From Acidimicrobiales bacterium (GTDB lineage Bacteria; Actinomycetota; Acidimicrobiia; Acidimicrobiales; Iamiaceae), in assembly GCA_035547835.1 (NCBI GenBank), contig DASZTW010000020.1, positions 62,001 to 126,000 of the forward strand: a DNA stretch of 64,000 nucleotides. The letters are read 5' to 3'. Of the stretch, positions 6,691-30,354 are shown piece by piece. Positions within the stretch are counted from its first letter, which is position 1. Every line of letters starts with the position of its first letter. The translations under genes were made by a program, and so were the position numbers. Under the pieces are notes generated by a model. That model did not search any database and was not told where the DNA came from. It worked only from the letters and a program-made list of their open reading frames with translations.

Positions 6691-7539
6691 TCAGCCGAGG
6701 GTCAAGAACCCGGACCGGGCGGGGTCGGGGTGGAACCCTTCGGCGGCGAGCGTCGTGGCCGCCACGTCGAAGCCCTGAGCGAGGAAGTGCGAGTCATGCA
6801 CGTCGCTACCGACGCTCACCGTGGTGCCGCCCTCCTGGCGCCACCACGTGACGACCCGAGCGTCGAGGGGAAGCCGAGTGTTGACCTCCAGCGCTCGCTC
6901 AGTCGCAGCCAGTGCGTGCAGGACCGTCCGGTGCTCTTCCTCGAAGTCGCCTGCGTCGTAGGGACCGGCTCCATCTGGTCCGGTGTCGGCTGGCCAGGAC
7001 CGGGCGGCGTAGTCGATGTGGGCCAGCACGTCGAAGCGGTCCCATGAGCGGATCATCCGCTCCATCTCGGTCAGGTAGCCGCGCACGACCTCGGGTGCAG
7101 AGCGGTCGAGGTAGGCGTCGGACACCTCGACGAGACCGTCGCCGCCGGGCAGCGAGTGGACGGCGGCAACGACGAGGTCGAACGCCCCGGCGTCGAGCAC
7201 AGCAGTGGCCTGCTGCGGATCCCGGTGCGGCTCGCCGAGCTCGACTCCGGCGTGGATCTCGAGGTCGGGGAACCGCTGGCGGCACCGCTCGACGCAGGCG
7301 AGGTAACCGTCGACGTCGAGAGGTGGCGGCACGAAGGTGCCGTCGTCCACGACCGCCCCGAGGTCGCCGAGGAACTCGGCCACGCCCGTCGAGACGCGCC
7401 ACCGGACGAAGTCGGCGTGATCGGTGAACGCGATCGAGTCGAGGCCCAGCACGAGCGCGCGTGCGCAGGCTCGTTCCATCGAACCGTGAGGGGCGTCCCA
7501 GGACCACTCTGTGTGCACGTGGCCGTCCCTCGGCGTCAT
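6691..7539 (-). CDS. PHP-domain phosphoesterase (histidinol-phosphatase-like)
   Basis: A 282-aa polymerase-and-histidinol-phosphatase domain. The metal ligands are in DGHVHTEWSW (residues 5-14), FTDHADF, GVELGE, AAVHSLPG, LAHIDY and the C-terminal GSDVHDS, in the family order. Enzymes of this type hydrolyse phosphate esters, classically histidinol phosphate, but this family also includes nucleotide-cleaving proteins. ATG 7539 has GAGGA seven bases upstream. The frame is continuous with the restored frame of the broken gene before it. Confidence 0.8.
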   Translation of the reverse strand: MTPRDGHVHTEWSWDAPHGSMERACARALVLGLDSIAFTDHADFVRWRVSTGVAEFLGDLGAVVDDGTFVPPPLDVDGYLACVERCRQRFPDLEIHAGVELGEPHRDPQQATAVLDAGAFDLVVAAVHSLPGGDGLVEVSDAYLDRSAPEVVRGYLTEMERMIRSWDRFDVLAHIDYAARSWPADTGPDGAGPYDAGDFEEEHRTVLHALAATERALEVNTRLPLDARVVTWWRQEGGTTVSVGSDVHDSHFLAQGFDVAATTLAAEGFHPDPARSGFLTLG

Positions 7540-8647
7540 GGTCACATCCTCGCAGGCAACCCCATACACATCAGCCGATCCGCCCGAGCGCCAGTCCTTG
7601 TCGCCGGACCCGTGCTTCAGTCCCTGGATCACGCCGACGAGGTCGTTCAAGGCGCGCAGATGCAGGCGCACGGCATTCGCTTCTCCCGGGCGGTCGCGCA
7701 GGAGGTACTTGACCCGCAGCGCTCGGGTCGGCTTGTCGTTGTGAAGCGCGTCGGAGCGGTTCGTCGCGTTGTACCAGGCCAACACGTCGACATCGGGAGC
7801 TGCGCCGCGGAGCGCGCCGTCGACGGTTTCCATGAGCGAGTGCGCCGCCTGCGATGCCGCGTCGGGTCCCGTACGGCTGACGCGCTCCCCACGCGCCGTC
7901 GAGGCGCGCGGGCAAAGCCGGGTCGAGCTCGCCCAAGCGGCCACGAAGCCGCGTCGCGAGCGCCTGCGGGCCGAGTAGTTCCTCGGTCTCGGCGGGGCCG
8001 CTCTCGGTTCCCTCCGAAAGGGCGATACCGGCGGCCGTGATGCCGAACGTGCCTCGCCCGAATGCCTCGAGGGGCTCGACGCGCTGTTCAAGTGTCGCGG
8101 CCCCGATCGCGCGCGTCGCCTCGTCCCAGCCGCGGATACCGATGCTCACCGAGCGTTCGACGAGAAGGGGTGTCGTCAGACCGCGGTACAGGGTCGGCAT
8201 GTTCTCGACGACGCGCGCAATGCGTGTGAGGTCGTTGAGCTGTCGCTGCAACGACGTATGGGCCGAGGTGTCGAGCAGTCCGATCTGCCGCTGGAACGTG
8301 GAGTCCGCAAGCGTTGCAAGGATGCGTGTCCGCGCCTGCTGCGCCTCGATGGCAGCGGCAAACACACTGGATCCCGTGATCCAGCGTGCTGATGCGGCGG
8401 CGGCCGAGATCGCAGGAAGCTCGACACCTGACGGGAGGCTGTCCATCGCACGGCGCGCCGCCTCGATCACGGGCCATTGGGTCGACATCTGCGCGACCAC
8501 TCGTTGGGCCGCGAGGATGGAGTCGGGCAGCGTGAACTGCCGGCTCAGCGCCGTGTAGGGAACGCGAACGACGACCTCGTCGGCCTCTTCCGGCTCCGCA
8601 TCTTCGTCGGTTTCGTGCCGAGCGTCGTCGGGCGATTCGTCGACCAC
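7540..8647 (-). pseudogene. Frameshifted gene with pPIWI-associating nuclease-like C-terminus
   Basis: The first part reads in one frame from about 8647 (GTG, uncertain) with an acidic N-terminus (DESPDDARHETDEDAEPEE) and helical regions, ending at LGELDPALPARLDGAW. The text then continues in a second frame near 7890: ERVSRTGPDAASQAAHSLME, VLAWYNATNRS, KPTRALRVKYLL and LNDLVGVIQGLKHG. The combined C-terminus resembles the domain of predicted nucleases linked to prokaryotic Argonaute/PIWI loci. The restored frame has no stop before the PHP gene, so a mutation or deletion is likely. Family assignment is from memory of its pattern. Confidence 0.45.
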
Positions 8648-8740
8648 GACGTCATCATGGCCGACAGTCCGGCAGCGATGGCGCACGAACACGTCGATCC
8701 ACCACCGTTCGCCGCGGTGAGCCGGCCCTACGCTCGGCGC

Positions 8741-9415
8741 ATGTCGGAGGGCAGGACATTCAGCTACACCGATGCGGTTGAGTGGGCGGCGACGTTGCCG
8801 CCGGTCGCCGAGCATGCGATCCGGTGGTACGAGTCGAGTTGGGCCGACCGGATCGTCGCGTTGAAGGACGAGCTCGCCGTGCTCGCGACGCGCTGCGTCC
8901 CGGATGCGAAGAAGCCAACGGCGCTGAACGTGTCGCGCCAAGTCGTCTTCAACGTCTTCGCGGATCCGGCGACGTCGGCGCGCGAGCGCTTCACCGCCGC
9001 GATGGTCTGGGGCTACGGCACCGTCGGTCGCGGCCCCGCACGCGTCGCGAACATCATCGGGCGCTCCGGCAACACTCTCGACGCGCGGCTCGAGCAGGTG
9101 ATCGACGCAGCCTCAAGCGATCCCGGCACCGCGTGGGACACCGCACTCCGCGACGCGAAGATCGCGTATCTCGGACCGTCGTTCGCGACGAAGGTGCTGT
9201 ACTTCGCCGCGTTCGCCGGCGGAGTGCCCGACCGGCCCGCGCCGCTCATCGCCGACGTCGTCGTCGCGCACGCCCTCCGGCTTCGGCGCTTCGGACGCGA
9301 CAGCTACGTCCAGTACTGCACCGACGCTGCACGAGCCGCCAAAGCCTTGTCGGGTGTGCGACGACGCGCCGACCAGATCGAGTTCGCGCTCTTCGAGACC
9401 GGCAAAACACGCTGA
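8741..9415 (+). CDS. Putative OGG-fold DNA glycosylase-like protein
   Basis: A 224-aa protein starting at ATG 8741. The core has an HhH-glycosylase-like layout: helices with TAMVWGYGTVGRGPARVANI, then LRDAKIAYLGPSFATKVLYF and PAPLIADVVVAHALR. It resembles the 8-oxoguanine glycosylase OGG-fold family of small bacterial proteins, where GPSF(A/F)TK and an Asp after a proline-rich turn are conserved. If active it would excise damaged bases. It is divergent from the broken gene before it and convergent with the fragments before DISARM. Confidence 0.5.
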   Translation: MSEGRTFSYTDAVEWAATLPPVAEHAIRWYESSWADRIVALKDELAVLATRCVPDAKKPTALNVSRQVVFNVFADPATSARERFTAAMVWGYGTVGRGPARVANIIGRSGNTLDARLEQVIDAASSDPGTAWDTALRDAKIAYLGPSFATKVLYFAAFAGGVPDRPAPLIADVVVAHALRLRRFGRDSYVQYCTDAARAAKALSGVRRRADQIEFALFETGKTR

Positions 9416-10266: not shown

Positions 10267-12177
10267 TCAGCCGTTCGCCGAAAGGAATCGCGCTTCGCGC
10301 AAGCGCTTGACGAACTCGTCTTCCCAACCTTCCGGGAGGTCGCCGATCCGAAGTGCGGCGTCACCGATCTGTCGGCAGTACTGCCCTTCGTCCCCCTTGG
10401 GCACCGAACGCGCACGGTGCTGTTGTTTCGGTTTCACTGATGTGACAACGAGGTCGAGCAGAACGTCGAGGTTGCACGAACGTCGTCCGGCTTTGGCGTA
10501 GTCGTCGGCGTTCTCCGAGACGACGACCTCATAGCCGAGCGCGTGGAAGCCAGCGGCCTGCAGCGCGCCAAAGAGGGCAACCCATGCGATCGGCGCGCGG
10601 TTTGCGTACGACAAGATGAGGTGGCCATTTGGCTTCAGCGCTCGGCTCACCTCGGAGAACACAGCTTCAAGTTGCGCGCGGTAGATCTTCGTGGTCTCGT
10701 CTGCCGCGCCGCGCGCAACGATGACATCGCCATCGATGCTTCCGAGCGGAAGGTCCGCCCACGCGCGGAAGATGTTCGAAAGCTCGCCGTAGTGCACGTC
10801 ATCGTGGTAGGGCGGATCCGTGACAACGAAATCGAGGCTCGCGTCGGGAACGACTAGCCGCGCGCTTGACCCTTCGACAACGCGAAGGTCGAGATCGGCC
10901 GGAAGCCGTCCGCGACGGCGACCGACCGGTACGGGTCCGTCGACATGCAGCGTCCGTCCGATGTGTTCGTCGAGCCAGAGCGATGCCTTCGCCGTGGCGC
11001 GCACCCGGCGGACGATTGTGCCGCGCCCGGAGTCTCCTGCGCCCCAAACATTCGGCTCCACGGCGAGCGTCGTCGCGTTGAACCGGTGATTCGCGATGGT
11101 CTCGTACACCTTCAAATAGCGCGGGTCCCATCGCGCGGCACGGCCCGCGATCTCGGTCGCACCGATGACTACGGCAATAAGCGCGTTCCTCGTCCGATCG
11201 TCGAGCTCGAGATCATCGATACGGTCGAGCAGCGTCTCGAGGACGACGCGCTGGCGGCTTGGATACAGGTCATGCCATGAGCTGAACCCCATGCTCGTCA
11301 GCCGATTCGTCTCGGGGCCACGCTCGATGGTGCCGAGATCTCGCTTCGGTCGCCAGCGCTTGTCGCTCGCTTGGGCACGCTCTACCGCCGTGGGTACATC
11401 AATTTCGCGAGCACCTTGCGCAACGCGCTCAGCCAGGATCGGTGACCACGAGAGCCGTGCGCCGATTTCCGAGATCGGTCCGCAATGGCCGCACGACGTG
11501 CATGTGTACTCACGACCGTTGAGGTAGCGCTCGTCGGGGTCGACGTGACGCGCGCACGTTCTGCACCGGGTCCGTCGGCTCGCGTCGGCGTGGTGCATGT
11601 GCCCCGCGCGGCACGCAACAAACCCGTTCTGGCCGCCGCAGTCCACGCGCGTGTCGAGAGACACGAGCGCGCCCGGGAACAGCCGAACGACGCGGCGGCA
11701 CTTCCGGCATGGAGCCTGCGCGAGCCAGAACGTGTGTGCAATCTCGGCCGGCGTCCCGTCCCGCAACGAAGTGGCGTAGGCATCGCGGAGCAGACACGCC
11801 GCCGCGTCGCGCAGCTCACCACTCGCGCTCTCGAGATCGGCGGGATCTGGCAGCGACGTCATGGTCGTGAGCCCGCGCACGGCCCACGGGTTCACATCCT
11901 GGGCGTACACCTTGTGTCCGCGAAGGAGTGCAGCGAGGCCAATGACCCCGCCACCGGCGAAAGGATCTGCGATCGTAAGCGAACCGGGTCGATCCCGCGC
12001 GATCGCGTCGATGATCGCGCCCGTCACGGTCTCGCTTCGGCGCGCCCACCATCGGTACACGCTGATGGGTGGTAAGTGGTTCTGTCGGCTGCGAAGCTCG
12101 GCGCGGGTCGCGTCCCGAAGCGCAGGCGCGTCGAGGTGACGTAGAGGGCTCGACCCGGGAGTGGCGCGCGTGGTCAT
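10267..12177 (-). CDS. DISARM-type DNA methyltransferase (DPPY, N6A/N4C)
   Basis: A 636-aa SAM-dependent DNA methyltransferase. Residues about 38-47 (ISVYRWWARR) and the SAM loop DPFAGGGVIGL (71-81) open the protein. A cysteine-rich insert with pairs at about 157/160, 205/208 and 226/229 looks like zinc ribbons. The catalytic motif DPPY is at 454-457 and the C-terminal strand region LKPNGHLILSYAN follows. DPPY marks amino-methylation of adenine or cytosine, like the DrmMI enzyme of class 1 DISARM, which labels host DNA as self. ATG 12177 was chosen; GTG 12366, overlapping the drmC stop, gives a low-complexity 63-residue extension. Confidence 0.8.
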   Translation of the reverse strand: MTTRATPGSSPLRHLDAPALRDATRAELRSRQNHLPPISVYRWWARRSETVTGAIIDAIARDRPGSLTIADPFAGGGVIGLAALLRGHKVYAQDVNPWAVRGLTTMTSLPDPADLESASGELRDAAACLLRDAYATSLRDGTPAEIAHTFWLAQAPCRKCRRVVRLFPGALVSLDTRVDCGGQNGFVACRAGHMHHADASRRTRCRTCARHVDPDERYLNGREYTCTSCGHCGPISEIGARLSWSPILAERVAQGAREIDVPTAVERAQASDKRWRPKRDLGTIERGPETNRLTSMGFSSWHDLYPSRQRVVLETLLDRIDDLELDDRTRNALIAVVIGATEIAGRAARWDPRYLKVYETIANHRFNATTLAVEPNVWGAGDSGRGTIVRRVRATAKASLWLDEHIGRTLHVDGPVPVGRRRGRLPADLDLRVVEGSSARLVVPDASLDFVVTDPPYHDDVHYGELSNIFRAWADLPLGSIDGDVIVARGAADETTKIYRAQLEAVFSEVSRALKPNGHLILSYANRAPIAWVALFGALQAAGFHALGYEVVVSENADDYAKAGRRSCNLDVLLDLVVTSVKPKQQHRARSVPKGDEGQYCRQIGDAALRIGDLPEGWEDEFVKRLREARFLSANG

Positions 12178-12362
12178 GAGGAAGAAGGTGCCTGTTCCGT
12201 CCGCCAGTTCACTCGTCTCGGTGCACCATGATGGCGTGGACGTTCCCCACACCCGCGGCATGCTCCGGAAATCGCTGTCGGGCGGCGGTTCGTGGCCGTG
12301 CGCCGGGGCAGCTCGCTGGTCCGACGGGCCCGCGGCTTGACCAGACGCATCCGCCCCGCGTC

Positions 12363-13232
12363 TCACATCTCGGCACGGGGTGAGTCGTCGAAGAGCCCTG
12401 CGGCATCAAGCTCGTCGAGGAACTGCACGAAGCGCTGGCTCTGGCCGGCCGTGAGTTCAACGCCTGCTTCGATGTGGCCGTGCAAGCCCCACGACGTGAG
12501 GTTCGCGGTGCCGAGGTAGCCGTGCACGTTGTCGCGGATGACGAACTTGGCGTGCAACATGGTTGGCCGCGCGCCGACGAACCATCGGACCCGTACCGGC
12601 CCGGCAGATCGGAGCGTCGCAAGCCGTTCTTGCAGGGGCGCGAGGTAGTCGCGCTCCGGTGTGTTCACGTAGACGGTGGTTGCGATTCCGCGCACTTGCA
12701 CCGCTGGCAGGAGCACGTCATCAAGGAGTTCGAAGCCTGCTTCGTTCCAGAACGCGCCGCCTATCGCGAGACTGGTAGTCGCCTGTCGGATGACGTCGAG
12801 GACGAACCCGTCGAGACGCTCGCGGTCAGCGAGCGGGACGGTGCCCGGCGGCGCGGAGAGCACAAGACGTGCATCGGGAAGCAGTCTCGGCGATGGCATC
12901 GTGCCGTTGGCGAGGATCTCGCACACGACAACGAGCTCCGCTACGCGCCCGGCGGCAGGAACGCCAGACTCGGTCATGACGCCGGCGCCAATGAGCTCTG
13001 CGCGTGCGGCGAGGCGGCGGTCGTCGTGCCCGCGAAGGAGAACGTGCGGGTCCCCTCCGAGGAGCTCGAGTGCGAGGCGCGTCGCGCCGTGGCGGCTGCC
13101 AGCGATCTCAGCGAGCAGTTCAGCGACTGGGACGAGGCCGACGAGGCCGTTCACGGCACCGGCTGTTGCTGCGTCCACAGCCAGAAGCGGCGGAGGAGTC
13201 GTCGGTCGAGATCGGCGTTCCAGGTGCGACAT
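12363..13232 (-). CDS. drmC: DrmC-like phospholipase D-family nuclease
   Basis: A 289-aa protein with one PLD (HKD) active site near the C-terminus: His227, Lys229, Asp234 and Asn244 in HAKFVIRDNVHGYLGTANLT. The N-terminal half is helical (VNGLVGLVPVAELLAEIAG). Single-HKD proteins act as dimers, usually as nucleases. DrmC is one of the three core DISARM genes, and in described systems is the least essential. The start ATG 13232 lies 82 bases inside drmB; GTG 13178 is an alternative with a 28-base overlap. Confidence 0.8.
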   Translation of the reverse strand: MSHLERRSRPTTPPPLLAVDAATAGAVNGLVGLVPVAELLAEIAGSRHGATRLALELLGGDPHVLLRGHDDRRLAARAELIGAGVMTESGVPAAGRVAELVVVCEILANGTMPSPRLLPDARLVLSAPPGTVPLADRERLDGFVLDVIRQATTSLAIGGAFWNEAGFELLDDVLLPAVQVRGIATTVYVNTPERDYLAPLQERLATLRSAGPVRVRWFVGARPTMLHAKFVIRDNVHGYLGTANLTSWGLHGHIEAGVELTAGQSQRFVQFLDELDAAGLFDDSPRAEM

Positions 13233-14965
13233 CCGAATGAGAGGTGCAGGCACCGGTCGCACGCGGCGTGAGGTCGTTGTGACGATACGTGTGAGCACAT
13301 GGGATCGTTGTCGCAGTGGTTCACGTTGTCGGCTGCACTGAGTAACCAGGGCGCGAGCCGCCTGCGCAGCACAGTGTCGAACGCGCCGAGCGTGAAGTCG
13401 TTGTACGACGCGACATAGATCGCGGTCGTCATCGCATCGGTGACGATCCATTCGGCGAGGCTGGCCTCGCCGAAGCCAGTCTGGCCGTCGTCGAGCGCGC
13501 GCAACAACGCGTGAGATGCGGAGTGAACGAGTCGCCGCGTCTTGCCCGCGGCGTTGTCGCCTCCGATTGCCGGATCGCCGGCCAGGAGTTGCGCGACCGC
13601 GAGCTTCGCATCCCGGCTCGAAGCCGGGACCGGTCCCGCGGCGTCACCCTCGTGCACCAGGAATCCGAGGACAGCACGAGCATCGAACGTCACGAGGAGT
13701 GCCTCGGTGTCCGCCGGTACGGCGAAGATTGGCGTCTTGCCGTTGTAGCGACGTGGTTGGGCATAGCTGCGGAGGTTGGAGTTGCCGGGCGTCCGATCGC
13801 ATCGGCTGTAGCCGTAGCTCGCGACGACGATCGGGAATCGCTGCGTCATCGAGATGTCCTCGATGCCGAGCAGCGCCATCGTTCGCGCGGTGTGGTCCGC
13901 GATCGTTCGTGCGGGACCCGTCGCGCCATCGCGTAGTTCCACGAAGCTCTTGCGGTCGTCGATGATGTTGCGGTCGAAGAGGCCGGCGCGTTCGACCATC
14001 GAGCGTTGCCCCGCAACTGCGATGACATCGGGATGGACGGATCCGGCAATGGCGGCGACACCACTGGTTGCCGGGCCCTGGAGGGCGCGTACGTTCGCGA
14101 TGACCGACTCGTCGACGCCACTGGCGCGCAGCGCCTGCTCCTGTGTCGCCCACTCGGCAGCGGTCATGCGCTGGCCGCCACCTGGTCGCTCGAGTTCTGT
14201 GAGTGACACGGCGAGCTCGGTCTGATCGCCAAGCCATGAGGCGAGCGCGGCGAGACCACGCTCGGAATGCCGCTGCAAGTTGTCGTAGGTCTGTCCCGAG
14301 ATGTTGATGATCGTGAGCGTCTGCGGCAGCCAAACGCGCTGGTCGCGCGCGGTGTAACCCTGCCGGTACGGCTGACCGCCACCCCGTGCGTAGCGCCCGC
14401 AGTCGCACGGTGTGAATCGTGTGCTGATCGCTGCGCCACATTGCCGACAGCGCCACGACGAGGACCGGAACGACCCGAGGTCCTCAAGGTACATGTGGTC
14501 GGGGATGCCGCAGTTCGGGCACCGCTGTGTGTGCAGCGGTTGCATCGTCCCACAGTTGTGGGCGGTGAGGTACCGCAGCTGCCGCATCTTCGAGTTGCAG
14601 TGCGGGCACCTGACCTTGCCGGTCGCGTTGGTGTCGGTAAGTAGCTGATCCTGCTGGAACCATCGCTTTACGCGACGGCAACTTGGATTCGCACATTCGA
14701 ACGTCAACGGGTACACGTCCCATGACACCTCTTCGGGTTCGATGATGGTGTACTCGTCGGGATTGGAGCGTGGATCGGGAATCCCGATCTGGTCCGGCAG
14801 CCACTTGTCGAGTTCGACGGCAAGCTCTTCGAGGAGAACGGTGCGGTTCAGGTCACCGACACGCGGGCCCGTGATGTGATGCACCTGTGCGATGAACCCG
14901 TCCTCGTGCGGAAAGACCGCGCCGGGGAGGTAGCGGTACAGCACCTGGGTGGTCGAACGCTTCAT
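13151..14965 (-). CDS. drmB: DrmB, DUF1998 protein of DISARM
   Basis: A 604-aa protein with several zinc ribbons: C91/C96 with C120/C123, C149/C152, and C173/C176 with C187/C189. The C-terminal DUF1998 domain has LVHSASHALLRAL and ends with CDRCLHLSFGC. DrmB binds the DrmA helicase and the complex engages incoming DNA, preferably with a 5' overhang, in described systems. The gene starts 12 bases after the drmA stop and overlaps drmC at its end. Length and motif order match the family. Confidence 0.85.
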   Translation of the reverse strand: MKRSTTQVLYRYLPGAVFPHEDGFIAQVHHITGPRVGDLNRTVLLEELAVELDKWLPDQIGIPDPRSNPDEYTIIEPEEVSWDVYPLTFECANPSCRRVKRWFQQDQLLTDTNATGKVRCPHCNSKMRQLRYLTAHNCGTMQPLHTQRCPNCGIPDHMYLEDLGSFRSSSWRCRQCGAAISTRFTPCDCGRYARGGGQPYRQGYTARDQRVWLPQTLTIINISGQTYDNLQRHSERGLAALASWLGDQTELAVSLTELERPGGGQRMTAAEWATQEQALRASGVDESVIANVRALQGPATSGVAAIAGSVHPDVIAVAGQRSMVERAGLFDRNIIDDRKSFVELRDGATGPARTIADHTARTMALLGIEDISMTQRFPIVVASYGYSRCDRTPGNSNLRSYAQPRRYNGKTPIFAVPADTEALLVTFDARAVLGFLVHEGDAAGPVPASSRDAKLAVAQLLAGDPAIGGDNAAGKTRRLVHSASHALLRALDDGQTGFGEASLAEWIVTDAMTTAIYVASYNDFTLGAFDTVLRRRLAPWLLSAADNVNHCDNDPMCSHVSSQRPHAACDRCLHLSFGCRTWNADLDRRLLRRFWLWTQQQPVP

Positions 14966-14977
14966 GGTCGTCTCCTG

Positions 14978-17900
14978 TCACCCGTGTAGGCGAGCGATGA
15001 TCTGGCCGGCACGGCTTCCGCCGGAAAACTCGACGGGCGGATTGACGTCGCGCAGGCTCGTCATTGCCGGGGTCGTGAACAGGTCCGTAAGCCATTCGGC
15101 CTGCCATTGCTGCATGCGTTGCCGTTCGACGTTCTCCCACCGGTCGAGCGCGTCGTCGACGAGCTTCTGTTCGTCGACGACCATCGCGGGGTCCTGAACC
15201 GGACATCGGTACGCGCGCTCGATGCGCGCTCGTAGGTGCGGAATGAGAGCCGCGGCGTTGGCGTTCCACCACGGCCGGAACTTGCGCGTCGTTGATATCT
15301 CGTCGATGCTCGGCCAGTTCGGGTTGCGGGTCTCGTCCCACAACAGTGCGCTGACGATGCCCGGAAGCGTGCGTTCAACCGCGCGTGTCGCGAAACGGTT
15401 TACCGGAACGGGCGCGACCATCCGCTCGAGTGCGGCGTGCGTTGTCGCGAAGCTCTGGTACATCGAGGTCTCGCGACGGTTCGCTCGGTCGAACACCGAC
15501 ACGACGAGCCCAACATGGGTGCGACCTGCCCGTGCGGTCACCTGGATGTAATCGGCGTAGGTCGGCGGCATGCCGGCGAGGACTTCGAAGTTCAGCCGAT
15601 CTAGGTCGACGCCGTGCGAGATGACGGACGTTCCGACGAGCGCGCGGATGCGTTGTGCACGCGCTGTCGCGGATGTGTCTGCTTGGATCGCGGCGACGGC
15701 GGCGGCGAGTTCTCCGAGTGACGTGTCGCCGATGAGGTATTCGCTGCGTACGGGGTCGGATCCTTGGTTGATCAGCTTCTCCGACAGCCGGTGGATGTCG
15801 TCGTGCACGACGACACCGTGCGCCTTGCTGTTGACGAAGGCGAGGGCGAGTTCGTAGTCGAAGAGCATCGCCCTCGCCTCGGTCGGCGACGCGGTGAATC
15901 CTTCGGCGGCGAGCGCCGCGATCAGCGGCGTCGGGTCGTCGGTGAGGCAGTGCACGTCCTCAACGAGCTGGGCGGTGATCGACGCGGCCAGGTCGACCTT
16001 GACAGTGCCGCCACCCGCCGGAAGTACGCCGAGGTAGATGCGACGAATGTCGTCGACGACCTCGGTGTAGAACGACTTGCGGAGCGTGGGGCCACCGACA
16101 GGGAACATGCGCGGCTTGCGCCCGTACACCTGTGAAAGCTGGTCCTCGTATTGCTCGATGGTCGCGGTTGCGGCGATCACCTTCGATGGTTCGTTGCCCA
16201 CTCCGGCGGCGAGCTCCGCGACGAGCGTGTGGTAGTGGCCTGCGAATACGCCGAGCTCTTCGCGCACGAGGTGCAACTCGTCTTGGATCCACAGTGCGGG
16301 GGTCGGGTCGTAGAAGCCCGAGGGAGACGTGTGCGTGCTCGGGTCAACTGCACAGCCCTTTGCTATGCAGGCCTTGTGCGTATACCAACCGTGCTGAGGA
16401 CAGCGCCGACGGGGCCCGTGGTTGATAGCGGTAAGCTGCCCGTTGCGTGCGAACGCCGTGATCTTGTCGACGGTGGACACGATGACGGCCGGTTGGTATC
16501 GCGTGACTTCCTCGTCGCTCGAGTGGATCGCGAGCACGTGCCCGCACGTTCGGCACACGTGGAGAAGTCGCTGGTCTGCGAGATCGACGTCGAGGCCAAC
16601 ACTGTCGCCTTGGCCGCATGACGGGCATGCGCCGACGAGCCGGCGTTCGTCGCGTTCGGCCTGCGACCGCTTGGCGAACTCATCGATCCCGTCCCACCAG
16701 CTGTTCGGATCGTTGTAGCCGAGACGGTTCGGCGTGTTGCCCGATCCGACGAAGTAACCGAGCACGAATGGGTCTCCAGGAAGACTTCCCGCGGCCCGGA
16801 CCGCTTCCGCATGATGGAGGATCTCGTTGATGCGTGCGAGTTGCTGAACGGAGAGCATGCGCAGCGGGAACAACAGCCAAGCCGTCGTTCCGCGCTCTTT
16901 GTCCCGCAGCCGGTCGAAGAAGAGCGCGACGGCGATGAGTCCGAGGTACGCCTCGGTTTTCCCGCCGCCGGTCGGGAACCACAGGACGTCGACCGAGTCG
17001 ATCTCGTTGCGCAGACGCGTATCGGTGCGGCTTTCGCGAGCGGCGAGCGCTCCGAGTTCGGAGACGATGAAGACGAGCTGGAACAGGCGCCAGGCACCGG
17101 TCGGACCCTTTGCCGCCGCGAAGGCGCGGTTCGCGAAGATGAAGGCACGGTCGAGGCGTACGTCGCTGCGCAGGAGGTCGCACCCGAGCTCGTACCGCTC
17201 GACTTCTGCTTCGAACTGCTTGCGCAGCTCCTCGAGCTGGTCGTGCTCATGTCCGGGGTTGGGTGCCGCGCTGAAGTCCCAGGTGCGCAGGAATGAACGC
17301 ATGGCCGACCCGATCGCCGCCAGCGCGCTCTGGTATCCGGCCTCAAGCGTCGCGAAGCGCAGATCGATGCCGTGGTCGCTTGACTCGGCAACGTGCTGCG
17401 CGTGCAGCGGCAAGGTCTCGGCGACGATCGTTTTCGGCGTGTCGCCAGGCATCGCAACGCAACCCCGGCCGCGCCCAACGACGGTCGCAACGTCGGCGTA
17501 ACGGACATCGTCCTTCGCGAAGCCGAGCCGCTGCGGGACGACGACACCTGCGCCGGCGACGGTGACGCTCATGCGCGTGTCGTAGACCGCGAGGTCTTGC
17601 AGCGCACGCTCTGTGAGCACGCGTGCGTTGGTAATCGAGACTGACACGGCGATGTCACCGTTCGGCGTCGGCGCGGTGGTGACCGTGAGCTGCGGCTGCG
17701 GCCACAGCGGGTTCCAGCTCGTGTCCCGCCGCCCGTTGAGGGCCTGCCGATAGTCGGCTTGGGTGCCGAGCGCGGCCGCGACGGGCAGCGTCTGGTTGTT
17801 CGTCAGCTTCCACAACGCGTCGGGGTTCGTGTAGTGCGCCGTGACGGCTGATCTCGTGTCCGCTTCGAGTGGGTCGCCGCCGGGAATCGCGTCACTTGTC

Positions 17901-18499
17901 ACCATCACTTCGCCGGCCTGCACCGGCGCGCGGATCGTGAAGGTGACATCGCGATTGTCGCGAACCCACGTCGGATTGACTGGAACAGTTGGCCGCCGGC
18001 GACGGTTTCCTCCGCCTGCGCTCGCGGCAGCGGCGCGCACTTGGGCTTCCGTATTGATGTAAGCGAAGTCCGGAACGAGCGGGTGGTACAGCGCGAACGC
18101 GACGTGCACGTCGAGCTCGACCTCCACGACACCGCTCGCGATTACGAAATCGAGTCCGACGACGCCTCGGTTCTCGACGGGAGGTGCGACAGCCGGCTGC
18201 CCGGCACCCGCCGCGCCAGCGTCGGTATCCCCATCGCCGTCGTCGCCACTCGTGCCGCTCCCCGCACCGGCCGCCGGTGGGGGTGTGTTGATGGTGGCGC
18301 CGAGAACGCCGATGCGCACCTGCTGGTCGGGTGTCCACGGGAACGCGTGGGTCGTGCCCGTCCTGTCGGTCAGCGCCTCGATCGTGTTCGCGAGCAGGTG
18401 GTGGACGAGCACCTGCTCACGCCGGTTCGTCGCTTTCTGTCCGGCTCCGGCGAGCGGCAACAGGGTCGACGGCGCGCTCGCGCCAGGCACGATGGTCAT
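14978..18499 (-). CDS. drmA: DrmA, SF2-type helicase of DISARM
   Basis: A 1,173-aa helicase. The Walker A motif WFPTGGGKTEAYLGL is at about residues 505-519, the Walker B DELH box in WIQDELHLV near 740, and the C-terminal helicase motif with YIQVTARAGRTHVGL near 985-1000. A zinc knuckle (CPSCGQGDS with CRTCGH) sits between the two RecA lobes. DrmA and DrmB form the DNA-sensing core of DISARM. The start is firm: ATG 18499 follows GGGAGGAACC. The GCGGGGAGC-rich linker near residue 70-85 is glycine-rich and probably disordered. Confidence 0.88.
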   Translation of the reverse strand: MTIVPGASAPSTLLPLAGAGQKATNRREQVLVHHLLANTIEALTDRTGTTHAFPWTPDQQVRIGVLGATINTPPPAAGAGSGTSGDDGDGDTDAGAAGAGQPAVAPPVENRGVVGLDFVIASGVVEVELDVHVAFALYHPLVPDFAYINTEAQVRAAAASAGGGNRRRRPTVPVNPTWVRDNRDVTFTIRAPVQAGEVMVTSDAIPGGDPLEADTRSAVTAHYTNPDALWKLTNNQTLPVAAALGTQADYRQALNGRRDTSWNPLWPQPQLTVTTAPTPNGDIAVSVSITNARVLTERALQDLAVYDTRMSVTVAGAGVVVPQRLGFAKDDVRYADVATVVGRGRGCVAMPGDTPKTIVAETLPLHAQHVAESSDHGIDLRFATLEAGYQSALAAIGSAMRSFLRTWDFSAAPNPGHEHDQLEELRKQFEAEVERYELGCDLLRSDVRLDRAFIFANRAFAAAKGPTGAWRLFQLVFIVSELGALAARESRTDTRLRNEIDSVDVLWFPTGGGKTEAYLGLIAVALFFDRLRDKERGTTAWLLFPLRMLSVQQLARINEILHHAEAVRAAGSLPGDPFVLGYFVGSGNTPNRLGYNDPNSWWDGIDEFAKRSQAERDERRLVGACPSCGQGDSVGLDVDLADQRLLHVCRTCGHVLAIHSSDEEVTRYQPAVIVSTVDKITAFARNGQLTAINHGPRRRCPQHGWYTHKACIAKGCAVDPSTHTSPSGFYDPTPALWIQDELHLVREELGVFAGHYHTLVAELAAGVGNEPSKVIAATATIEQYEDQLSQVYGRKPRMFPVGGPTLRKSFYTEVVDDIRRIYLGVLPAGGGTVKVDLAASITAQLVEDVHCLTDDPTPLIAALAAEGFTASPTEARAMLFDYELALAFVNSKAHGVVVHDDIHRLSEKLINQGSDPVRSEYLIGDTSLGELAAAVAAIQADTSATARAQRIRALVGTSVISHGVDLDRLNFEVLAGMPPTYADYIQVTARAGRTHVGLVVSVFDRANRRETSMYQSFATTHAALERMVAPVPVNRFATRAVERTLPGIVSALLWDETRNPNWPSIDEISTTRKFRPWWNANAAALIPHLRARIERAYRCPVQDPAMVVDEQKLVDDALDRWENVERQRMQQWQAEWLTDLFTTPAMTSLRDVNPPVEFSGGSRAGQIIARLHG

Positions 18500-18671
18500 G
18501 GTTCCTCCCGGGTGGAATCAAACGGTCTGGCCGGCCACCGATCCGCTTCGAGCGTGTCGGCCCGACCCCAAGGGTCTGCTGAGGGAAGGTTGTGTTGTGT
18601 GCCGCGTCGCGGCAAAGGCAGTGAACCCGAAGCCCGACGTCGGTGTCAACGATTTCCGACGATCGCGTCAT
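18417..18671 (-). CDS. Candidate small ORF (84 aa) between drmE-like and drmA
   Basis: ATG 18671 overlaps the stop of the 798-aa gene as ATGA, the coupling signal used throughout this window. The frame runs through the 168-base gap and 83 bases into drmA. The peptide (MTRSSEIVDTDVGLRVHC, then arginine-rich) has no recognised domain, and its codon use is less GC-biased at third positions than the neighbours. It may be a real coupling ORF or chance. Confidence 0.3.
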   Translation of the reverse strand: MTRSSEIVDTDVGLRVHCLCRDAAHNTTFPQQTLGVGPTRSKRIGGRPDRLIPPGRNHDHRAWRERAVDPVAARRSRTESDEPA

Positions 18672-21064
18672 CGGACCCGTCCCGCGATGTAGGCGGGTAT
18701 CTCGCGCGCTTCGTCAACGCCGGTGACGGTCGATATCACGAACTCGTCGAGGAGTTCGTCGGCGACAGGGCCGACAAGATCACGCAGCCGAGCGACGGTG
18801 TCGTCGCCACGGCCGCCGGCGACGGCGGCGACGAACCGGCCGAGCGTCCGGTTCAACGAGCGCAACGCGTCCGCGACCGCGTAGATGAGGTTGAGGTCCG
18901 GGCACGGCCGGTGCGCAGCGCGAAACACGGCGCGCACGTCTTCGGGCTCGCGCGGCGCGATAGTGGTCCCGTTGGCCGACGCACCCAGCTGGCTGGGCGC
19001 TTCCGCACCGACGTTCGCGACACGTTTGACGGCTTCACGTTGTGTCCGCGAACTGGCTATCACGGCGCGCGCGGCAGCACGCAACTGGCTCAGGATGAGG
19101 TCGAGCGATTGGACATCGGCGTTCGACCTGCTGGCCGCGACCAGCCGAGCGTGGATGGAATCGGTGCCCTCTCCGGCCGGGACAACGATCGAGTCACCGT
19201 CTTGGAGCTGCGCGACCGGGCAGTGCTCGGGCCCGCCCGCGGTGACACGCACGACGGGCGTGGCGCCGTCGCCATCATCGATGCACCACCATGTGCGTCC
19301 GTCGGCAAGATGAACGGGCACGCACATGCGAGCGCTCGCGCCCCCGCTGAGCGTCGTTGTCGACACCGGCTGTTCCACCTCGTCAGGCGGATCGAGCGCA
19401 TCGGTTGCACTGTCGAGTACCTGCGCGAGAGATAGTCCCGGCACCTGCAACGTGGCCACCGCACGAGCTGGTGCTGCCTCGCCGCTCGCAGCGACGGGCG
19501 ACACGAGTGCATCGGGCGCGGGCGCGTTGAGTACGCGCGCCAACGCGCGATCCCAGCCAGATGCGGTCGCGGCCCATCGTTCGCCCTGGCGCGCCAGAAT
19601 TGCTTCTTCCGCTGCGTAGACGAGCACGTGCGTTGTTGGTGCCTCGATACCGAGAAGCAACGAGAACAGCCATGGCGGCGGTGGACTGGTCAGGACTTGT
19701 GCGTCGACATCGCCTGCGGCGACACGCTCCTTGAACGTGCCAATGCGTACCCTGGCCTCGATGCGGTCCCAGAGCGCGATCTGCGCCTCGGTTCGCTCGC
19801 CGGTCGAAAGCGACGTGCGCGTCGCCTCCGCGGCCGCGCGCGAGTGGCAGCGAATGAGGATGGTGCCGCTCGTCGTGCGCTCGAGCTGGTCGAGAACGCG
19901 CCACAACGCGAGCAGCTTGGGATTGTCCTCCTCGAGCGCACGCCACAGCGCGCGGGCCGCCGCCTTCAACGCGCCGAGGTTCGCCGTTTCCCAGGAGCGC
20001 CAGTTCGGCGGCAACGTCGCGGTCGCCCGATCGAGGAGCCGAAGAGCGGGAAACTCGCCCGGACGCGGGTTGTACGTACATGCGGTCTTGTAGTCGGCTA
20101 CACGCGCGGCGAGCCGCGAGCCGTTCCTGACGAGCTTCAACGGGACGTCGAGTTGTGGCGGCGGAGGCCCGTTCGGCTTCGCTGCGATCGCCTCGAGAGC
20201 GCGAGAGACAGCGTCGTTCGCAGCCTCACCGACGACACGGTGCAGCGACACTGACGTTGGCGAGAGCCACAAGATGCTCTGGCTCGAAAGTGTGCTGGGC
20301 GGACACACGCCACGGTTGAATGTGGCAACGAGATCCTGCGCGAGAGGCTGCGTCACGGCGAGAACAAGGGGTACGAGCCCAGCGTCGGAAACGGTCTTGA
20401 CAAGCCCGTCGTCGCCGAGATCGCCGATCACGGCGATCGCCGCCGCGCCCTGCTGCAGCGCCCATTCGAGCGCACGCGTCCGCGCGACAGGATTCTCGAC
20501 TGATGTGGCGTCGACCACGACCAGCGGCGGGCTGCAGGTGATCGACGGCTGGCCGATGCGGGTGTTGTAGTACAGCAACGAGCGGTCGACCGGCCGGGCC
20601 TCGCTCCCGATCAGCGGCTCGGCGGACCCGGCGCGCGTGAGCCGATGCGCAGAAAGCGGGTTCCCATCGGCGAGGCCCATCCGTCGCCGGTTCCGCACGG
20701 CGAGCGACCGAAGCTGCGATACGAGGTCGACGTCGAACCCGACGAGCACGACCGGCCCACCAAGGTCGGCCGGGGGCTGGCGGCACAGCAGGTGGCTCAT
20801 GATCGCGAGGAGAAGCGCCACGCGGTGTTTCGCTCGGGGCAGTTGCACGACAGCGACACGGCCGAGTGCCGGGTCGAGGAGCAGGCGTCGCGTGAGGGCC
20901 ATCAGCATTTGATCCACGGGCGAAACCGCGACGTCGACCTGGCCGTCGATGAACGTGGCGTTCGCGAGCTCCTCGAGCGGCGGGTCGGACCGGTTTGGCA
21001 GGAGCGCGTCGACAATCGATTCGGCTGAGGGCGGTACGGCGGAGCCGGCGGCGCGAATGGTCAT
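18668..21064 (-). CDS. DrmE-like DISARM accessory protein with degenerate helicase-like fold
   Basis: A 798-aa protein that leads the DISARM operon. In size and position it matches DrmE of class 2 DISARM, whose function is unclear. Several parts look like worn SF1/SF2 helicase motifs: RVAVVQLPRAKHRVALLLAI where a P-loop would be, VVLVGFDVDLVSQLRSLAVR (motif Ia-like), PPLVVVDATS (motif II-like) and GTILIRCHSRAAAEATRT (motif IV-like). No GKT/GKS P-loop or DExx box is present, so ATPase activity is doubtful. ATG 21064 is the only good start. The name DrmE rests on context and general resemblance. Confidence 0.5.
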   Translation of the reverse strand: MTIRAAGSAVPPSAESIVDALLPNRSDPPLEELANATFIDGQVDVAVSPVDQMLMALTRRLLLDPALGRVAVVQLPRAKHRVALLLAIMSHLLCRQPPADLGGPVVLVGFDVDLVSQLRSLAVRNRRRMGLADGNPLSAHRLTRAGSAEPLIGSEARPVDRSLLYYNTRIGQPSITCSPPLVVVDATSVENPVARTRALEWALQQGAAAIAVIGDLGDDGLVKTVSDAGLVPLVLAVTQPLAQDLVATFNRGVCPPSTLSSQSILWLSPTSVSLHRVVGEAANDAVSRALEAIAAKPNGPPPPQLDVPLKLVRNGSRLAARVADYKTACTYNPRPGEFPALRLLDRATATLPPNWRSWETANLGALKAAARALWRALEEDNPKLLALWRVLDQLERTTSGTILIRCHSRAAAEATRTSLSTGERTEAQIALWDRIEARVRIGTFKERVAAGDVDAQVLTSPPPPWLFSLLLGIEAPTTHVLVYAAEEAILARQGERWAATASGWDRALARVLNAPAPDALVSPVAASGEAAPARAVATLQVPGLSLAQVLDSATDALDPPDEVEQPVSTTTLSGGASARMCVPVHLADGRTWWCIDDGDGATPVVRVTAGGPEHCPVAQLQDGDSIVVPAGEGTDSIHARLVAASRSNADVQSLDLILSQLRAAARAVIASSRTQREAVKRVANVGAEAPSQLGASANGTTIAPREPEDVRAVFRAAHRPCPDLNLIYAVADALRSLNRTLGRFVAAVAGGRGDDTVARLRDLVGPVADELLDEFVISTVTGVDEAREIPAYIAGRVR

Positions 21065-21667: not shown

Positions 21668-21862
21668 TCACTCGTTGGTGTCGTCGTCGTCCGCGGCGGC
21701 TTCCTGCGACCCAGCGACTTGAGCCACTAGCAGGGTGCTCAGAATTTGATCGTACGTGGCCCCTACGACGCTCCTCCTCAGAGCTGGACCACGGCCGCCG
21801 ACCGGCGTCCCTGCGGCTACGGCGTGTGCGCCAAGCCGCCACTCAACCGGGCCTAGTTGCAC
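21668..21862 (-). CDS. Small hypothetical ORF (64 aa) after the toxin gene
   Basis: GTG 21862 overlaps the end of the PIN toxin gene by 20 bases. The product ends QILSTLLVAQVAGSQEAAAD and an acidic tail DDDTNE. No family is recognised. Coding is suggested only by the overlap and the natural-looking C-terminus. Confidence 0.3.
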   Translation of the reverse strand: MQLGPVEWRLGAHAVAAGTPVGGRGPALRRSVVGATYDQILSTLLVAQVAGSQEAAADDDDTNE

Positions 21863-22400
21863 GGCGTCGGACTTCGTCGGCAAATGCCGGGACACCGCCC
21901 CGCTCGAGGGCATCAAGGATCTGGGGAAGCGTTCTCGGGGCTCGGCGGTTGGCGGCTGCCTGTCGCGACAACTCGTCGACCACTGCGCCGGGGGCAAGGT
22001 CGAGCAGGTCGAGGAGGAAGGTGTCCGGGTGGATGACCTCGACTGCGTACGGCTCGATGCTGTGGTCGGGGAAGTCGGTGGTGTTGAAGGTGACGATCGC
22101 TCCGGCGTTGGCTCGCACCGCTGACGCGAGGACATGCCGATCCTTCGGGTCACACGTCAGCCCGTCGATGAGCGCCTGGTATCCGGTCACCTCGGCGTCC
22201 GGGAACGCGGCGGTCATCTGGCCGAGCAGGCGGTCGACTACCGACGGGTCGACCACCTCCGTCAGGTTGCGCCGCAGCTCCTCGACGATGTCGGCCGACC
22301 ACAGGGCGCGGTAGAACCCGCGTTCGGTCAGGCGGAGCAAGGTGTCTCGCAGATGCGCCGGGTACAGCACGCAGGTGTCGAGCACCGCCGCGAACGTCAC
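21843..22400 (-). CDS. PIN-domain toxin (VapC-like)
   Basis: A 185-aa PIN-fold ribonuclease. The acidic residues are in the first strand (AAVLDTCVLYPAHLR), in EELRRNLTE, in DPKDRHVLASAV and in FNTTDF, the usual four-acid layout. Toxins of this type cleave RNA when their antitoxin is lost. It starts 6 bases after the antitoxin stop, so the two are co-transcribed. It is longer than classic VapC (about 130 aa), with a helical C-terminal extension. Confidence 0.8.
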   Translation of the reverse strand: MTFAAVLDTCVLYPAHLRDTLLRLTERGFYRALWSADIVEELRRNLTEVVDPSVVDRLLGQMTAAFPDAEVTGYQALIDGLTCDPKDRHVLASAVRANAGAIVTFNTTDFPDHSIEPYAVEVIHPDTFLLDLLDLAPGAVVDELSRQAAANRRAPRTLPQILDALERGGVPAFADEVRRRATRPG

Positions 22401-22406
22401 GACGGC

Positions 22407-22871
22407 TCAGCGGGTGCACTTGGGGGTGGCGGTGCGTTCGTAGAGGTCGGCCTCATCGGCGATCTCGACCATCCGGTCGAGCGCCGCTCGACGCTCGACC
22501 GATGCCCGCTCGCGGTAGGCGAGGACGTCGGCGAGGCGGACCCGGCGGTGACGGCCGGGCTGTTCGAAGGGGATCTCACCGGATTCGAGCAGCTTCACCA
22601 CCGTCGGCCGGCTCACACCCAACAGATCGGCAGCCTCCTGGGTCGTGAGTCGCTGATGGACCGGTGCGATCGTCACCGCCTGTCCCTGGGCCATGGCCTC
22701 GACTACATCGCGAAGCACCTCGAGCACCTTCGGGGGCAGTACCAAGTGCTCACCGTTCGGGCCTGACAGGGTCGTGGTCGGCTCCGCTCCAAGGCCGTCG
22801 AGCATCGCCGCCAACGCCTGCAACGGCTCAGCCGGGGGCAGCACGGTTCGTTCGATCGTGGACATCGCCAC
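22407..22871 (-). CDS. Excisionase-type HTH antitoxin
   Basis: A 154-aa protein with a helix-turn-helix of the excisionase/MerR-like kind in the middle: LTTQEAADLLGVSRPTVVKL followed by LESGEIPFEQPGRHRRVRLA. This is the usual DNA-binding antitoxin partner of PIN toxins of this size. It probably represses its own promoter and binds the toxin through its C-terminal helix. The start may be GTG 22871 or ATG 22865. Confidence 0.8.
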   Translation of the reverse strand: MAMSTIERTVLPPAEPLQALAAMLDGLGAEPTTTLSGPNGEHLVLPPKVLEVLRDVVEAMAQGQAVTIAPVHQRLTTQEAADLLGVSRPTVVKLLESGEIPFEQPGRHRRVRLADVLAYRERASVERRAALDRMVEIADEADLYERTATPKCTR

Positions 22872-23118: not shown

Positions 23119-23487
23119 AAGGAGGACAACCACCTGCGCCACACCCACGGCAGCCTTCTCATCAAGGAGGGCGTCCCGGTGAAGGTCGTCTCCGAACGGC
23201 TCGGCCACGCTCAGATCGCCCACACGATGCAGACCTACCAGCACGTCCTGCCCGGCATGCAAGCCGCCGCCGCCGACACCACCGAGCGCCTCGCCAACCC
23301 TCGACCGGGAACCACGACCCCACCGAAGAGGACTCCGACGAGGAAGACCACGCCGAAGAAGACCTCTCCGGACAAGGCCACAGCAAAGGAAGGCACGCCA
23401 AAGAAGGCTGCAGCCAAGAAGGCCACGAAACCGGCTCGGAAGACGCCGGTGGAACGTCGTGGGAACAACCGGAGGAAGGCCGCCTGA
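23119..23487 (+). pseudogene. C-terminal remnant of a tyrosine recombinase (phage-type integrase)
   Basis: The frame holds the end of the catalytic domain: HLRHTHGSLLIKEGVPVKVV (the HxxR box), SERLGHAQIAHTMQTYQHVL (LGH and the nucleophile Tyr). The N-terminal arm and the first half of the catalytic domain are missing, so it should be inactive. After the catalytic end comes a lysine/proline/alanine-rich tail of about 50 residues (TPKKAAAKKATKPARK), like histone H1 tails. It stops 65 bases before the tRNA gene. Confidence 0.8.
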
Positions 23488-23552: not shown

Positions 23553-23629
<77 letters not shown>

Positions 23630-27658: not shown

Positions 27659-29143
27659 TCATGCGTCACGATCGACCTCCACGCCGATGCCTTGGAGGGA
27701 CTCGGCGAGTTCGGTGAACTCGGCGAGGGCGGCTTCGAGGTCTTCGACGATCTCGGCTGCGATGACACCGGGGGCGGGGAGGTTGTCGGTGTCTTCGAGG
27801 CTCTCGTCACGGAGCCAGAAGATGTCGAGGCTGGCCTTGTCGCGGGCCACGAGCTCGTCGTACGTGAACCGGTGGAACCGCTCGGTCTCCTTGCGTTTGC
27901 CACGCTTTCCGGCCTTGTAGCAGTCGACGAAGTCGTCGAGGTCGGAGCGCCGCAGGGGGTTGGTCTTGAGGGTGAAGTGGTGGTTGGTTCGCAGGTCGTA
28001 GATCCACAGATCCTTGGTCCACGCCGTGTCGGAGCCCGGTTTGCGGTCGAAGAACAACACGTTGGCCTTCACGCCCTGGGCGTAGAAGATCCCGGTCGGC
28101 AGGCGCAGCAGCGTGTGCACATCACACTCGTGCAGCAGCCGTCGACGGATCGTCTCCCCTGCCCCACCCTCGAACAGGACGTTGTCGGGCACGACCACCG
28201 CAGCCATGCCACCAACGTTGAGCAGCGTCTTGACGTGTTGCAGGAAGTTCAGCTGCTTGTTCGACGTCGACGCCCAGAAGTCGTCGCGCACCACGGTAAG
28301 GCTCTGACGCTCGGCTTTGCCCTCGGCGTTGATGATCTGGACCGACGACTTCTTGCCGAACGGAGGGTTGGTGAGCACCATGTCGAACCGCTCGCCCGGG
28401 TCGGCCCGCAGCGCATCGTCGACGTGAACAGGGCTGTCGGACTCGGGCGACTCGATGCCGTGCAGCAGCAGGTTCATGGCGCACAGCCGCGCGGTGTTGT
28501 CGACGATCTCCCAGCCGGTGAACAGCCCCGAGCGCAGGTGGCGCTTCTGATCGGGGTCGAGGCTGGGGTTGTGGCCGAGGATGTAGCTGAACGCTGCGAG
28601 GAAGAAGCCGCCGGTGCCGCACGCGGGGTCGCAGATGCGCATGTCGGGCCCCGGCTGCATCACGTCGACGATGCCGGAGATCAGCGCCCGCGGCGTGAAG
28701 TACTGGCCCGCTCCCGACTTGGTGTCGGCAGCGTTGCGCTCGAGCAGCCCCTCGTAGGCATCACCTTTCACGTCGGCGTCGAGCATCATCCACGACTCGC
28801 CGCCGATCAGGTCCTTGATGAGCCGCTCGAGCTTGGCCGGATCCTGGATCCGGTTCTGCGCCTTGCGGAACACCACGCCCAGTAGGTCGTCAGTGCCGCC
28901 GAGGTGGTTGAGGATCGCGAGGTAGTGCGCCTCGAGCTTCTCGCCTTTGCGCTCCAGGAGCGACGACCAGTCGTAGCCCTCGGGCACGATCCGCGGCAGG
29001 CCGAGTTGGTGCTGCTCGTCGGCCATCTTCAGGAACAGCAGGTAGGTGAGCTGCTCGAGGTAGTCGCCGTACGACAAGCCGTCGTCGCGCAGGATGTTGC
29101 AGTAGTTCCAGAGCTTGTCGACGATCACCTTGGTGTCGCTCAC
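27659..29143 (-). CDS. hsdM: Type I restriction-modification DNA methyltransferase (HsdM)
   Basis: A 494-aa N6-adenine methyltransferase. The N-terminal HsdM helical domain is KLWNYCNILRDDGLSYGDYL, the SAM motif is in RICDPACGTGGFFLAAF, and the catalytic NPPF motif is in VLTNPPFGKKS. It pairs with HsdS to methylate host sites. The start GTG 29143 shares one base with the stop of the upstream ATPase gene (TAGTG), so they are coupled. It is the last gene of the operon. Confidence 0.93.
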   Translation of the reverse strand: MSDTKVIVDKLWNYCNILRDDGLSYGDYLEQLTYLLFLKMADEQHQLGLPRIVPEGYDWSSLLERKGEKLEAHYLAILNHLGGTDDLLGVVFRKAQNRIQDPAKLERLIKDLIGGESWMMLDADVKGDAYEGLLERNAADTKSGAGQYFTPRALISGIVDVMQPGPDMRICDPACGTGGFFLAAFSYILGHNPSLDPDQKRHLRSGLFTGWEIVDNTARLCAMNLLLHGIESPESDSPVHVDDALRADPGERFDMVLTNPPFGKKSSVQIINAEGKAERQSLTVVRDDFWASTSNKQLNFLQHVKTLLNVGGMAAVVVPDNVLFEGGAGETIRRRLLHECDVHTLLRLPTGIFYAQGVKANVLFFDRKPGSDTAWTKDLWIYDLRTNHHFTLKTNPLRRSDLDDFVDCYKAGKRGKRKETERFHRFTYDELVARDKASLDIFWLRDESLEDTDNLPAPGVIAAEIVEDLEAALAEFTELAESLQGIGVEVDRDA

Positions 29144-30300: not shown

Positions 30301-30345
30301 CCTGATGGATCTTACCGCATCTTATGGTTCTTATCGAGAGGTGGG
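30301..30345. promoter_or_regulatory. AT-rich repeated element before the ATPase gene
   Basis: The 54-base gap between hsdS and the ATPase gene is unusually AT-rich. ATCTTA occurs at 30309 and 30319 with a near copy TTCTTA at 30328, spaced about one helical turn. On the minus strand these read TAAGAT, like -10 boxes or operator half-sites. It may be an internal promoter or the binding site of the ATPase's winged helix. Confidence 0.35.
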
Positions 30346-30354
30346 TAAGGTCGG

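Follow-up and report, generated by a model that had tools for sequence, protein, structure and literature searches.

The operon and its surroundings

The window analysed here, a stretch of 64,000 nucleotides from a draft assembly in 22 contigs, contains five ORFs on its minus strand that run in the same direction from 21064 to 10267 and encode, in this order, a DrmE-like protein, DrmA, DrmB, DrmC and a DPPY methyltransferase (Table 1). All five frames are open, with the motifs of DrmA, DrmC and the methyltransferase intact, and the ribosome-binding sequences upstream of drmA and drmB are good. The GC content of the operon is 66.6%, compared with 69% for the window. As listed, drmC was a 362-aa ORF (13451-12363) extending into drmB; its start is probably the GTG at 13154, which overlaps the drmB stop and gives a protein of 263 aa. 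For the methyltransferase, the start is likely either GTG 12366 or ATG 12177, of which the latter agrees with the relatives.

Table 1. Features in and around the operon, with positions as numbered in the window
Feature	Position	Strand	Description
drmE-like	18668..21064	-	798 aa; predicted SF2-helicase-like fold (~46-514) and DrmE_C-type C-terminal domain (~590-798)
drmA	14978..18499	-	1173 aa; SF2 (YprA-family) helicase; motifs FPTGGGKTE, QDELH, TARAGR
drmB	13151..14965	-	604 aa; zinc-ribbon / DUF1998-type DrmA partner; Cys pairs conserved
drmC	12363..13154	-	Probable 263-aa PLD nuclease; one intact HKD motif HAKFVIRDNVHGYLGTANL
DNA amino-methyltransferase	10267..12366	-	699-aa ORF; N-terminal RWWARR, DPFAGGG (motif I), zinc-ribbon-type Cys pairs, DPPY (motif IV) ~370 residues after motif I
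Type I R-M locus	27659-34499	-	HsdM, AAA ATPase, HsdS, HsdR; near the DISARM operon
PIN-domain / HTH pair	21843-22871	-	Probable toxin-antitoxin
Tyrosine integrase remnant	23122-23484	+	C-terminal part
tRNA-Met	23553-23629	-	
OGG-like glycosylase	8651-9412	+	PF21790, 2.6e-38
Part of a predicted pPIWI-associating nuclease domain, joined to PHP domain	6691-8941	-	PF18165; next to the glycosylase

When analysed with the PADLOC and NCBIfam profiles, DrmA was matched at 8.1e-104 and DrmB at 1.4e-37, with DrmC reaching 7.9e-8 (PADLOC) and 2.7e-12 (NCBIfam). The sole PDB match for DrmA was the solved class 1 DrmA (7s9v, 1.6e-47), and the sole match for DrmB was the class 1 DrmB of the same entry (7s9v chain B, 8.5e-5). 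The DISARM core of DrmA, DrmB and DrmC that a sequence-only reading of this DNA had proposed was borne out by these profile and PDB matches. As in DISARM systems, DrmA and a separate DrmB of the DUF1998 type are encoded by adjacent genes, and both a PLD-family DrmC and a DNA methyltransferase lie inside the operon.

The type I R-M locus is close to the DISARM operon, and the region can therefore be described as a defence island. The PIN/HTH pair, the integrase remnant and the tRNA-Met suggest an old integration beside the operon; a repeat of the tRNA-Met end that could have served as attachment site was looked for and none was found. On the other side, the reading frame of the ORF that joins the PF18165 and PHP domains seems to be split near 8.0 kb.

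The DrmE-like protein and the methyltransferase

Aligned by itself with the Pfam DrmE_C model (PF24957), the 798-aa protein scored 15.2 bits, below the cut-off of 27, and it gave no DrmE match among the PADLOC or NCBIfam profiles, thus staying below every DrmE cut-off. Proteins that fill this slot in related operons are 23-63% identical to it and reached up to 68 bits with DrmE_C. These included the protein of L006/L016 (27% identical to the window protein; NF038316 DrmE_fam 2e-21, DrmE_C 65.5 bits), that of L022 (NF038316 5.9e-17, DrmE_C 68.1 bits), and those of the Streptomyces locus L024 and the Nocardia locus L014, with DrmE_C scores of 54.8 and 31.6 bits, respectively. Using hhalign, the family profile could be aligned with an annotated DrmE-family protein of Haloplanus at 97% probability over 208 C-terminal columns, and with the actinobacterial, C5-associated DrmE of L021 at 95.5% over 552 columns, with nothing significant against the single sequences of L020, L086, L083, L099, L102, L100 and L097. 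As full-length relatives in the same slot match DrmE models, we assign the 798-aa protein, through those relatives, as a very divergent DrmE; the kinship to annotated DrmE proteins is firm for the C-terminal part only and weaker elsewhere. A DrmE-like protein, as claimed in the sequence-only reading and as belongs to class 2, was hence upheld by way of relatives above the PF24957 cut-off together with the hhalign results, with the window protein alone scoring below.

An AlphaFold model built on seven family sequences (mean pLDDT 73, pTM 0.73) displayed tandem RecA-like domains with a helical insertion. The best Foldseek match of this model was the Hef helicase (1.7e-8), and the best match by VIA-align was RIG-I (Z 13.6, 317 residues, 3.8 A). 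At the position of Walker A the family carries an LPR[AG]-like sequence and at that of DExx a [VI]D[AR][TS]-like one, with the Walker A GKT and the DExx motif being absent from every aligned family member. DrmE is thus predicted to be a catalytically dead pseudo-helicase of SF2 fold. By eye, the DrmE-slot proteins of L020, L021, L094, L098 and L100 seem to share this family's pattern of strand, Pro-loop and helix at the P-loop position. The C-terminal domain alone gave no significant fold match, with weak intein-like beta matches (E at least 0.07) as the only ones obtained. The role of DrmE in DISARM has been described as open (PMC9142583), and the predicted fold would provide a first testable idea for this protein.

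The motifs of the methyltransferase are found in the alpha-type order, and the enzyme carries the signatures expected of a DUF1156/COG1743-like protein, with WWARR near the N-terminus, DPFAGGG, the Cys pairs, DPPY and a long insertion separating motif I from motif IV. Its best profile matches were a PADLOC type II methylase model (MTase_II, 76 bits) and the PglXI, HmaB and DUF1156 models, and it scored 64 bits with the NCBIfam DUF1156_antiphage model NF042963, which has a cut-off of its own of 1000. Neither DrmMI nor DrmMII was present among its best 25 PADLOC matches. The claim that a DPPY enzyme stands here in place of a C5 methylase also held, with DPPY present and no match of the operon methylase to PF00145; the single PF00145 gene of the genome sits on a different contig (C7). 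Judged by these matches, the enzyme would be a zinc-ribbon, DUF1156-like amino-methyltransferase, neither DrmMI nor a C5-type DrmMII, and its product is most likely N6-methyladenine, as indicated by DPPY and by the relatives.

Recurrence and phylogeny of the gene set

The whole set recurs in other genomes in the same order, individual proteins of the close set being ~46-74% identical in amino-acid sequence, and the operon is therefore not a chance assembly. At least 10 genomes besides that of the window carry the variant, and the gene set is common to 11 loci from Acidimicrobiia, Nocardia, Streptomyces, Rubrobacter and two further actinobacteria. With E, A, B and C denoting the drm genes and M the methylase, the order E-A-B-C-M of the window is also found in the MAG loci L011, L005/L012 and L008/L015, in Nocardia higoensis (L014) and in L022 (genome G685); the loci of L008 and L011 end at contig edges, and in L022 the DrmE and DrmC frames appear broken. 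Other loci are arranged differently: L013 has E-A-B-M and lacks drmC, L006/L016 has M-E-A-B, and a plasmid of Rubrobacter tropicus (L031/L098) carries M-E-A-B-C. In L024, from plasmids of Streptomyces cellulosae, E-A-B-C is accompanied by a divergent M, and L085 (genome G683) shows A-B-C-M where its contig ends. A full drmC was found in neither L013 nor L006, and this gene is therefore probably optional. Two ORFs, judged by eye, directly precede the DISARM operon of N. higoensis (L014, 1310-9825): one of 2099 aa that apparently contains an NTPase module, and one of 739 aa that resembles a metallo-beta-lactamase-fold protein.

The variant is rare, its DrmE being present in 4 of the 298 genomes of the order. 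Among 396 sampled Actinomycetota, the variant accounted for 4 of the 28 DrmA-positive genomes, that of the window counted. Viral contigs and phage records gave no relative, and a plasmid search using the DrmE of L020 and that of L021 gave no match.

A 37-row tree of DrmA grouped the loci having a DUF1156-like methylase into one clade (11 rows, 99/98), which was kept when the plasmid loci were added (10 rows, 100/98). The sister of this clade in the 37-row tree comprised L021, which has a C5 methylase together with DrmE, and L084, which has an MzaA-like sigma factor, with the class 1 loci and those of the C5/UvrD type found on the opposite side of the tree. With the plasmid loci included, the clade was nested in a wider group that contains haloarchaeal DrmE, C5 and N6_Mtase loci. 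For the close set, the tree of DrmE was in agreement with that of DrmA. L006 and L024 were set apart on a long branch of the methylase tree, and in these loci the methylase gene also has a different position; the modification gene was therefore probably swapped within the clade. The picture is that of an old lineage whose modification gene can change, and not of a recent hybrid. Such a variant suggests an exchangeable methylase module and a set of DrmE, DrmA and DrmB that travels together.

Class assignment and proposed working

Class 2 DISARM, as defined by Ofir in 2018, reportedly consists of drmE, drmA, drmB, drmC and drmMII. The class definitions that we used were taken from PMC9252829 and PMC9142583. 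In PADLOC, type I requires DrmA, DrmB, DrmC, DrmD and DrmMI and prohibits DrmE, and type II requires DrmA, DrmB, DrmC, DrmE and DrmMII (PMC9252829). The operon satisfies neither definition. Like class 2, it encodes a DrmE-family protein together with DrmA, DrmB, DrmC and a methylase and has no DrmD, but the methylase is DUF1156-like and not C5, the DrmE is divergent and missed by the profiles, and DrmA belongs to a clade of its own. With class 1 it shares the DrmA-DrmB-DrmC core and an amino-methyltransferase, but it has neither the SNF2 protein DrmD nor a PglX-like DrmMI of ~1340 aa, and DrmE is present.

No SNF2 helicase was found among the five genes, in agreement with the sequence-only reading. 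A remote drmD was rejected as well; in the whole genome there was no DrmD at the family cut-off, the sole long SNF2 match scoring 177 bits against 610 required (contig C17) in a search that also gives matches in all 14 control genomes. The refutation named in that reading, no DrmE match together with a remote drmD, does not apply, as the kinship to DrmE is shown through relatives and no genome match reaches the DrmD cut-off.

With regard to other defence systems, the Hma (HmaB), MADS (Mad2), PglXI and BREX-related methylases are of the same broad zinc-ribbon amino-methyltransferase kind, with the window enzyme scoring 37-64 bits against their models, but their partner genes are absent here and the partner is instead the DISARM core. 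ARMADA and MZA likewise use a YprA-family helicase, and the sister branch in the DrmA tree includes the MZA-like locus L084, but the operon lacks a BrxHII-like helicase, a PglX-like methylase and an MzaA-like sigma factor. According to Bell et al., the DISARM-like clade of YprA helicases holds many uncharacterised classes, and their main text has no mention of DrmE or DUF1156 (PMC12458937). Among open papers, we found none that names a third DISARM class.

Taken as a whole, we consider it quite probable that the operon constitutes a complete DrmE-type DISARM of a coherent actinobacterial subtype having a DUF1156-like zinc-ribbon amino-methyltransferase as its modification enzyme. That it is an anti-phage system of the DISARM kind is probable. 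The sequence-only reading had spoken of a hybrid or a separate subtype, and of these the separate subtype is supported, by the DrmA clade and the conserved gene set. The other part, a mix of class 2-like and class 1-like components as would arise by recombination of a class 1 methylase with class 2 DrmE modules, did not survive and we regard it as barely credible, even if a DPPY amino-methyltransferase does adjoin a DrmE-family protein. The class 1 methylases in the survey are NPPF enzymes of ~1340 aa, and the class 1 example L062 reached 1846 bits for DrmMI and 1467 bits for DrmD, whereas the window enzyme had no DrmMI match within its best 25; the DrmA of the window is also distant from class 1 DrmA. 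Methylase profiles and DrmA tree together thus spoke against the hybrid.

A stronger competitor, although in our view still unlikely, is that the operon is merely class 2 DISARM with another methylase substituted for the C5 enzyme, meriting no separate name. The DrmE-family protein, the E-A-B-C order and the methylase at the end are all in line with this, as is the nearest DrmA outgroup L021 with its C5 methylase and DrmE, and methylases do vary on the DrmE-type branch, being of C5 type in L021 and L100 and of N6_Mtase/Eco57I type in L099 and L102. Against a simple replacement, wherever a methylase is visible in the DrmA clade it is of the DUF1156-like type, and because this clade branches deeply and covers several groups of actinobacteria, the association is old; moreover the actinobacterial locus L020, whose DrmE passes the NF038316 cut-off, has its DrmA elsewhere in the tree. 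A role other than phage defence, in a restriction- or repair-like system acting for instance on plasmids only or in DNA repair, seems distinctly improbable. YprA helicases outside defence do act in repair (PMC12458937), but here DrmA and DrmB are encoded separately, as they are in DISARM, and their operon also holds DrmC and a methylase. In addition, the window contains a type I R-M locus, two relatives are on plasmids, and occurrence in only 4/298 genomes of the order points the same way.

Returning to a DISARM subtype as the preferred reading, the system could work as follows. The methylase would mark host DNA, most likely with N6-methyladenine in view of DPPY and the relatives, and DrmA-DrmB, judged by homology and intact motifs, may load on unmarked DNA ends or single-stranded overhangs and translocate, as shown for class 1 DrmAB. 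DrmE, predicted to be a dead SF2-helicase-like protein with its own C-terminal domain, might bind DNA or act as a scaffold in the place that the SNF2 helicase DrmD takes in class 1, and the DNA would be degraded by DrmC or another nuclease. In class 1, DrmAB is subject to autoinhibition and loads onto 5'-overhang DNA that is unmethylated, with methylation slowing it, and DrmC is dispensable and often missing (PMC9142583). As DrmA and DrmC keep their motifs here and the genes follow the same logic, a mode of the class 1 type is likely. More tentatively, and with slightly less than even confidence, we propose that DISARM is a modular DrmA-DrmB chassis and that the operon represents a third, old class in Actinomycetota, having a DUF1156-like self mark and a DrmE that replaces DrmD as a dead SF2 helicase. 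If so, DrmE would in general be a pseudo-helicase.

The variant breaks the two-class scheme used by PADLOC, with drmD paired with DrmMI and drmE with DrmMII, and such operons would therefore be reported incompletely or missed. In line with this, the PADLOC models gave no DrmE match either for the window protein or for the DrmE of L020, which is positive with NCBIfam.

Several further loci with DISARM-like genes were seen in the survey. The Polaromonas plasmid locus L099 (2719-14628) and the Mesorhizobium plasmid locus L102 (2904-14391) encode an N6_Mtase/Eco57I-type methylase, a DrmA-like helicase, a hypothetical protein and PLD proteins, with a protein of 830-940 aa having no family match in the DrmE slot. 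Plasmids of Halarchaeum (L097, 2982-19471) and the halophilic archaeon DL31 (L093, 5573-19638) carry genes for a C5 methylase, a DrmA-like helicase, a hypothetical protein, PLD-type proteins and a type IIG-like enzyme, the DrmE slot of L097 being taken by a protein of 910 aa whose HATPase-like match is weak. On a Tsukamurella plasmid (L101, 4351-20328), a DISARM-like locus comprises a C5 methylase, a RelA/SpoT-domain protein, UvrD, a DrmA-like protein, DUF1998, a DEAD helicase and a restriction-type methylase, such that a RelA/SpoT nucleotide-signalling domain adjoins the DISARM core. Finally, sigma-70-like genes, MzaA-like in L084 and L081, were found directly before genes for DrmA-like and DrmB-like proteins in L084 (5621-12257), L081 (6755-13110) and L095 (7365-13244), which suggests that MZA-type systems use a helicase pair of the DISARM type.
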